From positions 1-49,302 of the forward strand of contig MFTO01000001.1 of assembly GCA_001786835.1 (NCBI GenBank): a stretch of DNA of 49,302 nt, read 5' to 3'. Under the pieces are notes generated by a model, which saw only the letters and a program-made list of their open reading frames with translations, was not told the DNA's origin and made no database searches. Made by a program: the position numbers and the translations under genes. Shown here one piece after another: positions 5,468 through 48,585 of the stretch. Numbering within the stretch: the first letter of the stretch is position 1; each line of letters opens with the position of its first letter. Source of the stretch: Candidatus Nomurabacteria bacterium RIFCSPHIGHO2_01_FULL_40_20 (GTDB lineage: Bacteria > Patescibacteriota > Minisyncoccia > Phycocordibacterales > UBA9973).

Positions 5468-5836
5468 ATGAATATATACGATTTAAATAAACAAGTGAAA
5501 ATTGACTGGAAAGAGAAGAAAAACAAGCAGTTGGTGCGTTCCCTGCTTGCCCTTAAGACTCCCCTAGAAGCAGAGCGGTTTCTGCGCGACCTGATGACCG
5601 AACCGGAAATCAAAGAATTTGCTAACCGCCTAGAAGCGGCTAAATTGCTCTCCAAGAATGTCTACTACGACACCATCATCGAAGACACTGGCCTCTCTTC
5701 TGCTACCATTGCTCGCATCAAAAAGTGGCTCCTAGGGCCTCTTGGGGGCTACCGTTTAATACTTACTCGCTTATCGAACCATCACAATCCTACCAAACTT
5801 GGGAAAGGATTGTCTTTCAGTGGTGCGCCGAAGTAA
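5468..5836 (+). CDS. YerC/YecD (TrpR-like) family DNA-binding protein
   Basis: LLALKTPLEAERFLRDLMTEPEIKEFANRLEAAKLLSKNVYYDTIIEDTGLSSATIARIKKWL. Confidence 0.85.
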   Translation: MNIYDLNKQVKIDWKEKKNKQLVRSLLALKTPLEAERFLRDLMTEPEIKEFANRLEAAKLLSKNVYYDTIIEDTGLSSATIARIKKWLLGPLGGYRLILTRLSNHHNPTKLGKGLSFSGAPK

Positions 5837-32439: not shown

Positions 32440-33141
32440 TTAGAGCTTCTCTGGTATCAAAAGCGCTACGGATTCAATCAAAGTCTTTGGAGAGGAGCCC
32501 GATTGACGGAGAAACTGCCGAGCTTTCATTATCTGCTCAAACACTCGTACACTTTCTTTACCCCATAGGAATTTCCTATGTGGGGCATGGAGGGCAAGCT
32601 CAAGAGTATTTAGAAATTTTAAGGCTTTACTCCTGATAGAGTCGTCCATTATTTCATTTTCCGGCTCTACCAGTAATTCTTTTAAAAAATCAATTCTACC
32701 TCTCAGTGAGAGTTTTATAAATTTTTCCCCCAGAGCTATATCTCCTTTTTTATCGTCCGCAGAAATAACATAGAACCTAGAAACCAAAGTCGGCAGAAGC
32801 GCGTTTACATCCGGAACAACCAGAAAAAAGTGAGTATTCTCTATCGGCTCTTCAAAGAGCTTGAGCATTGTCCCTTGCGCGTCTAGAGAAAAATTATTAG
32901 CGCAGATTATAAAAAATTTCTTCTCTCCTATTCCCCGCTCGCTACTCATGTCTTTGAGAGAGAAAGCTTCGTCAATTTTAAAATTATCAATGGCTATGTG
33001 AACCAAATCTGGGCTCGAAGGAGAAATATCAAAAATTTTCAAAAATTCCAAAATGGATTTTGTGATTTCTTCCCTCGCTCCTTCCACTAAATAAGCATGA
33101 TGTAGATTTTCTTTATCAAAATGTTTATTGATTAGGTTCAT
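32440..33141 (-). CDS. DNA polymerase III delta'-like subunit
   Basis: HHAYLVEGAREEITKSILEFL, FFIICANNFSLDAQGTMLKLFEEPIENTHFFLVVPDVNALLPTLVSRF. Confidence 0.85.
   Translation of the reverse strand: MNLINKHFDKENLHHAYLVEGAREEITKSILEFLKIFDISPSSPDLVHIAIDNFKIDEAFSLKDMSSERGIGEKKFFIICANNFSLDAQGTMLKLFEEPIENTHFFLVVPDVNALLPTLVSRFYVISADDKKGDIALGEKFIKLSLRGRIDFLKELLVEPENEIMDDSIRSKALKFLNTLELALHAPHRKFLWGKESVRVFEQIMKARQFLRQSGSSPKTLIESVALLIPEKL
32561..32585. repeat. 25-nt palindrome CCCCATAGGAATTTCCTATGTGGGG inside the delta'-like gene
   Basis: CATAGGAA/TTCCTATG stem extended by CCC/GGG with one bulge. Confidence 0.8.
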
Positions 33142-33142
33142 A

Positions 33143-33184
33143 GGTTCTAGGTTCTAGAAGCTAGTCACTAGCAACTAGTCCCTA
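33143..33184. repeat. Degenerate heptamer array GNNNCTA x6
   Basis: GGTTCTA GGTTCTA GAAGCTA GTCACTA GCAACTA GTCCCTA. Confidence 0.88.
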
Positions 33185-33187
33185 ATC

Positions 33188-35767
<2,580 letters not shown>

Positions 35768-46667: not shown

Positions 46668-46750
46668 TAGATTTAAGATTAGAGATTTTAGATTTGAGTA
46701 ATTAGATTCATTTGCATCTCACTACCAACTTTAATCTAAAATCTGCCAAC
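46667..46750. repeat. Degenerate heptamer array between atpD and atpC
   Basis: TTAGATT TAAGATT AGAGATT TTAGATT TGAGTAA TTAGATT ... TACCAAC TTTAATC TAAAATC TGCCAAC. Confidence 0.8.
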
Positions 46751-46752
46751 TA

Positions 46753-48174
<1,422 letters not shown>

Positions 48175-48543: not shown

Positions 48544-48585
48544 TCTTATATTTTTTAATTTAATCTGTAATCTTTAATCTGCTAA
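48544..48585. repeat. Degenerate heptamer array between atpG and the four-helix protein gene
   Basis: TCTTATA TTTTTTA ATTTAAT CTGTAAT CTTTAAT CTGCTAA. Confidence 0.65.

Follow-up and report, generated by a model that had tools for sequence, protein, structure and literature searches.

In the genome of Candidatus Nomurabacteria bacterium RIFCSPHIGHO2_01_FULL_40_20, the short gap between mreB and holB is filled by tandem heptamers, which raises the question of what kind of element they form and why they would be kept in a CPR setting of small genomes with little spare DNA. Intergenic heptamers of bacteria are so far without an accepted function or origin, and the polarity of the arrays described here, their parity at gene starts and stops, their scattered presence at one conserved junction across 70 species and the combination of matching frame with mismatching words lead to a testable structural hypothesis. 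The locus was studied in a window, i.e., the whole 49,302-nt stretch of DNA that holds mreB-holB, and in the context of its own genome (550,711 bases in 21 contigs, 78% complete).

The array in the mreB-holB gap

The initial annotation had placed six heptamers at positions 33143-33184, and these are present with exactly the letters given. In the order of the coding strand, the junction is composed of the following features.

33188..34219, minus strand: mreB, the upstream gene (Pfam MreB_Mbl, E 1e-134; the gene caller's start is at 34201)
33184..33186, minus strand: ATT cap directly past the mreB stop, a motif (ATT-AG) that recurs on the outer side of left arms
33142..33183, minus strand: six AG-NNN-CT heptamers in the mreB-holB gap
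33131..33135, minus strand: CTAAT motif capping the right arm, within holB codons 3-4 (ATG AAC CTA ATC)
32440..33141, minus strand: holB-like gene for DNA polymerase III delta', the downstream gene (Pfam DNA_pol3_delta2, E 1e-13)

The gap of 46 nt, extending from the holB start codon (CAT, 33139-33141) to the mreB stop (TTA, 33188-33190), is entirely taken by the heptamers and the flanking AATC, and across it the coding strand reads mreB TAA-G-ATT-AGGGACT-AGTTGCT-AGTGACT-AGCTTCT-AGAACCT-AGAACCT-ATG-AACCTAAT. The variable words on this strand are GGA, TTG and TGA in a left arm, CTT in the centre and AAC, AAC in a right arm, and thus what had been described as one direct array is made of two opposed arms. 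The earlier statement that the array runs up to the ATG holds in that the gap is filled to the start codon, but the end motif CTAAT continues further into the holB coding sequence. Three exact matches to CTAGN3CTAGN3CTAG are found in the window as compared to 0.00 expected from 100 dinucleotide shuffles, and the mreB-holB array is real and beyond chance. No T run is present 3' of it, and hence it does not have the make-up of an intrinsic terminator, in which a T run comes directly after a G+C-rich hairpin.

The unit is best written as AG-NNN-CT. TAG and C had initially been taken as the kept frame; immediately beyond the strict array, however, 32/34 left arms retain AG and only 21 retain TAG, and therefore what is conserved is not the stop codon. 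Since CTAG is palindromic, TAG is present on both strands. The words are drawn from a restricted set, with GTT (61), TTT (40), TGA (26), TTG (21), GTG (13), GGG (11), GGA (10) and TGG (9) making up most of the 220 words, and identical words are adjacent less often than expected (13 vs 20.5, one-sided p 0.04).

Dispersal and placement of the heptad family

The mreB-holB array is one member of a dispersed intergenic family of heptads in a family of Patescibacteria (CPR). In its own genome, 20 matches to CTAGN3CTAGN3CTAG are observed with none for the reversed-pattern control, and 83 of 148 genomes of the same taxonomic family contain at least one match, with a maximum of 63 in one genome and control matches in 3. 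In an even draw across the phylum, 42/381 genomes have matches and a comparable minority has matches to the reversed control; because reversed controls are similarly frequent at this level, the array signal is concentrated in this family of Patescibacteria. Outside the lineage, CTAGNNN arrays occur in many phyla, mostly as one or two words repeated.

The enrichment of period 7 between genes, proposed earlier as a check, is borne out by local segments in stretches of the own genome, six of seven of which were picked because they bear arrays: 13 intergenic segments have lag 7 as compared to about 1.5 at other lags, most of which have 0-3 segments each, with lag 11 (6 segments) and lag 14 (10 segments) as exceptions. 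The window alone contributes four lag-7 segments; lags 11 and 14 have three each there and every other lag has 0-1. Among relatives, 17 lag-7 segments are found in G147 (N runs excluded) and 12 in G010. This excess is confined to intergenic DNA in array-bearing genomes, and no period-7 excess was found in G069 and G129, which are without class A arrays. Aggregate autocorrelation over all intergenic DNA gives little signal, and local lag-7 segments are needed to reveal the period.

The placement of the arrays follows a strict grammar. Using a home-made gene caller on ten genomes, none of 73 arrays falls within a called gene. Neighbouring arms are in left-right order in 18 cases and in the reversed order in none, with G/T-worded arms adjoining the left gene and opposed arms the right gene regardless of gene direction, such that the G/T-worded strand points away from whichever gene it touches. 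The nearest gene is the left one for 21/27 L-type arms and the right one for 31/40 R-type arms, and the outer end of an arm is most often separated from a stop codon by 0-12 nt or from a start codon by 2-12 nt. When tandem gaps with a single arm are considered, the arm is on the stop side in 17 and on the start side in 14. Divergent gaps account for only 1 of about 47 array gaps as compared to 65/449 of all gaps, although these are small numbers. Both arms are recognisable in 13 of the 47 array-bearing gaps and most of these gaps have one arm only; about 5 of 14 single-arm gaps tested have a degenerate partner, the rest being apparently single. The flanking genes are not of one function and include rplF-rplR, nrdA-nrdB, pil genes, obg and an ABC transporter (named by eye from sequence). 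At several loci (L021, L041, L101, L106, L108 and L109), an extra strong terminator-like hairpin is located between the arms or between an arm and the opposite gene.

Three unit classes can be distinguished by their frames, AG..CT in class A, AGGC.YT in the second class (class B) and AGATT.. in the third, and all follow the same grammar of opposed arms. The only clear heptamers in G130 and G082 are of the second class. Three period-7 arrays of the AGATTNN class, at 46669, 48140 and 48560, are also present in the window, where the following arms were located.

46669..46698, plus strand: AGATTNN left arm in the gap that separates an atpC-like from an atpD-like gene
46731..46744, plus strand: opposed NNAATCT right arm in the same gap, partner of the 46669 arm
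48140..48162, plus strand: AGATTNN left arm bordering, on the left, the gap next to the atpD-like gene
48560..48580, plus strand: opposed NNAATCT right arm at the right edge of the gap holding the 48140 arm

Elsewhere in the window, positions 1351-2260 contain a 455-bp direct repeat in two 100% identical copies, overlapping the gene for an M1-type aminopeptidase (692 aa, with the domains Peptidase_M1 and ERAP1_C) as well as an ORF that overlaps this gene; the repeat may represent a recent duplication or an assembly error.

Turnover, folding and candidate explanations

Of 70 congeners, 7 have a class A array at the mreB-holB junction. Class B arrays or remnants are found there in a few congeners and unrelated perfect hairpins in several, and the gap in most measures 0-15 nt. 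Array-bearing species are scattered on the mreB tree, which is poorly resolved, requiring 4 changes against a shuffled mean of 4.1, and vertical descent alone was rejected on this ground. Fourfold sites of mreB are saturated among the array species (25-36% identity with the own genome), yet the arrays are still similar: the uncommon word CTT is found in several array-bearing congeners, the end CTATGAACCTAAT, corresponding to the first holB codons, is found in most, and most share the holB N-terminus MNLI. Such similarity past synonymous saturation fits selection or long constraint and repeated gain alike. Similar elements at other junctions (scpA-scpB, topA; named by eye) show 84-93% identity over 44-61 nt, the obg junction has arrays in few congeners, and the number of units differs between orthologous junctions. 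At one obg junction (L204 of G090), the array appears to provide the stop codon of the gene 5' of obg (...CTAGAACCTAGAACCTAA).

Two-arm elements give long regular predicted hairpins. The mean folding z against dinucleotide shuffles is -4.5 for class A (21 elements, two of them duplicate loci), with -3.2 for the own mreB-holB array, and ranges from -2.1 to -6.6 for classes B and C. Some of the pairing of class A arms follows simply from the self-complementarity of CTAG, and a fold in this class therefore does not demonstrate selection. More informative is the pairing of the variable words, which was compared in 36 non-redundant class A elements with arms swapped between elements as a control. 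Partner arms have 39% word complementarity as compared to 45-46% in swapped arms (p 0.019 in one register and 0.007 in another), and their mean MFE is -25.8 vs -29.1, with 0/60 swaps as weak; for the one free position of class B units, 1/15 cases show pairing against 30% expected (p 0.04). These statistics indicate that the frame of the arms pairs while the words tend not to, and a simple perfect hairpin was rejected because partner-arm words pair less often than swapped-arm words. The lower complementarity of partner arms is shown statistically but post hoc, since the test was applied to the very data that had suggested the rule; hence the rule needs an independent set, and the p values are modest. 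The excess of mismatches could arise if perfect palindromes are selected against, if they are lost in vivo or if short-read assembly fails where a hairpin is perfect.

What the data establish is that the arrays exist, are dispersed and lie between genes, that they have a polarity and a restricted set of words, and that they can fold and are present in some species but not in others. The best overall explanation, to which a probability of about 45% is assigned, is a dispersed heptad hairpin element of gene borders with a paired frame and mismatched words. In a typical element, two arms of 7-bp units read away from the flanking genes and are reverse complements in a fixed frame, and the whole gap, as RNA or single-stranded DNA, can fold into one long hairpin with a break about once per heptad. 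The frame may be kept because either the fold itself or a protein that recognises the hairpin matters or lets the repeat persist, and the mismatches in nearly every heptad may be kept because long inverted repeats, when perfect, would be harmful or would be destroyed through SbcCD-type cleavage, deletion or RNase III. Physiologically, this would point to a general intercistronic hairpin at gene borders, like REP/BIME punctuation, rather than to a regulator specific to mreB-holB. The element comes and goes between species, can overlap first or last codons and is probably not moved by the REP transposases of relatives.

The alternative that retains most weight, although it is doubtful, is a neutral or selfish slippage repeat that is tolerated only between genes due to its stops, with the polarity reflecting growth toward the 5' neighbour gene. 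The uniform, slippage-like CTAGNNN arrays of many phyla, the variable unit number at orthologous junctions and the high turnover agree with it, and restriction to intergenic DNA follows from stop codons in every unit. However, the deficit of identical adjacent words (13 vs 20.5, p 0.04) is the opposite of slippage, the word set is restricted, partner arms are anti-complementary and the similarity of the mreB-holB arrays outlasts synonymous saturation.

An array of operators, in which a cooperative DNA-binding protein of ribbon-helix-helix or TrpR-like type would recognise heptads in both direct and inverted order, coat the AG-NNN-CT units and mark gene borders, is rather improbable. The constant 7-bp spacing, the dyad AG..CT frame, the opposed orientation and the few words that make up most of the set would suit such a binder. 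The operator of TrpR contains CTAG, TrpR family proteins are found in 53/80 congeners, and one is encoded in the window.

5468-5836: Trp repressor family gene (Pfam PF01371, E 1e-14)

TrpR copies, however, track the arrays unconvincingly (rho 0.21, p 0.065), with no hit in 4/17 array-rich genomes, and TrpR was set aside as the array binder because of this weak correlation. Also arguing against operators are neighbour genes of no common function, three different unit classes sharing one grammar and the many complete congeners without class A arrays.

A translational stop trap or start-site element is very unlikely. It had been suggested that TAG in every frame would stop ribosomes leaving mreB; this is arithmetically true, with TAG in all three frames of both strands, but is not supported as the reason for the arrays. 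Right arms often end about 4-6 nt 5' of the ATG and arrays overlap start and stop codons, as at L204, which would suit a role in translation, but AG and not TAG is retained at the outer edge, arms are equally common on start and stop sides (14 vs 17), and most congeners' mreB-holB junctions work without any array. The lack of an obvious Shine-Dalgarno ahead of holB was correctly noticed but is not special, since a Shine-Dalgarno-like 4-mer is found upstream of only 11/154 called genes at the own-genome loci (window and L046-L051). A stop trap would further leave unexplained the strict opposed polarity (18 vs 0), the G/T-only words and the inter-arm mismatch.

Exceedingly improbable is a REP/REPIN-type element moved by a REP-associated tyrosine transposase: the correlation between the numbers of Y1_Tnp copies and of arrays across the genus (rho 0.34, p 0.002) and the presence of Y1_Tnp in 16/17 array-rich vs 16/35 array-free genomes, both uncorrected for genome kinship, looked promising, yet a CTAG heptamer pair is found in 0/20 Y1_Tnp loci of array-bearing genomes, many of which are bordered by their own, perfect hairpins, unlike heptads, and the own genome (78% complete) has no Y1_Tnp match despite its 20 array matches. 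The Y1_Tnp genes with their flanking hairpins constitute a RAYT-REP system in Patescibacteria, with perfect inverted hairpins (e.g., GGCAAGACC / GGTCTTGCC) flanking REP-associated Y1_Tnp genes of congeners at L340, L347, L348, L350 and L351. A hairpin of the Y1_Tnp type is also located between mreB and holB in G124 and G125 (junctions in L123 and L125).

Comparison with known repeats

Like REP, BIME and REPIN sequences with their RAYT proteins, the arrays are intergenic, dispersed, hairpin-forming and present or absent between species, but they are built of heptads, have no common palindrome and were not found at any of the 20 Y1_Tnp loci. Ribbon-helix-helix proteins such as omega bind heptad operators, composed of 7-bp units in direct and inverted order. 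The present arrays share with these the 7-bp units in both orientations; however, the AG..CT frame is not the omega heptad and the arrays are not promoter-specific. Integron attC sites were considered on account of the GTT/AAC ends and discarded, since the order is reversed in the arrays.

In Beggiatoaceae, TAACTGA direct repeats are intergenic, abut start codons, overlap the Shine-Dalgarno position and contain stops; nearly all are directed to start codons, with one inverted case reported, and a translational role was suggested (PMC4679880). The arrays resemble them as intergenic heptamers that adjoin start codons, cover the Shine-Dalgarno position and have stop codons inside, but instead of a fixed unit directed toward starts they have varying words and opposed arms, which are as common at stops as at starts.

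The closest relatives are the heptamers of Xanthomonas, (GGGANTN)n or GGGAATC, and of Nostoc, GGGGA(C/T)T, which are intergenic, combine fixed and free positions and usually comprise four units (PMC4692102). They are close to the ORF on their 5' side in either orientation of that ORF, with few between divergent genes, show no bias in gene function and are of unknown function; there are about 185 repeats per genome, and 70-75 opposed heptamer pairs per Xanthomonas genome (PMC4692102). The arrays share with them the tandem 7-nt unit, the fixed frame, the intergenic location, a strand that lies near the 5' neighbour ORF irrespective of direction, the opposed pairs, the absence of a gene-function bias and, with 1 of about 47 gaps and thus small numbers, the scarcity between divergent genes. 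They differ in lacking G-tracts, the words being mostly GTT, TTT, TGA and TTG, and with few G-tracts no G-quadruplex is expected; in having three unit classes, words that vary within an array and the inter-arm mismatch rule; in occurring in a different phylum; and in number, with about 20 matches in the own genome as compared to about 185 repeats per genome. Among open-licence papers, no literature on such repeats in the CPR was found.

It is unlikely, although worth considering, that the opposed heptad arrays of Patescibacteria, Xanthomonas and Nostoc form one general bacterial element class, i.e., hairpins selected for a periodic pairing frame with a mismatch per heptad, which would be read by a putative protein or made by a putative polymerase-linked process and would serve as sequence-independent marks of gene borders. 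What appears to be new is a Patescibacteria variant, with the inter-arm mismatch as a structural regularity still to be confirmed and with a putative function. Since the positional rules match closely those of the Xanthomonas and Nostoc heptamers, the present arrays are filed as a variant of that kind of repeat.
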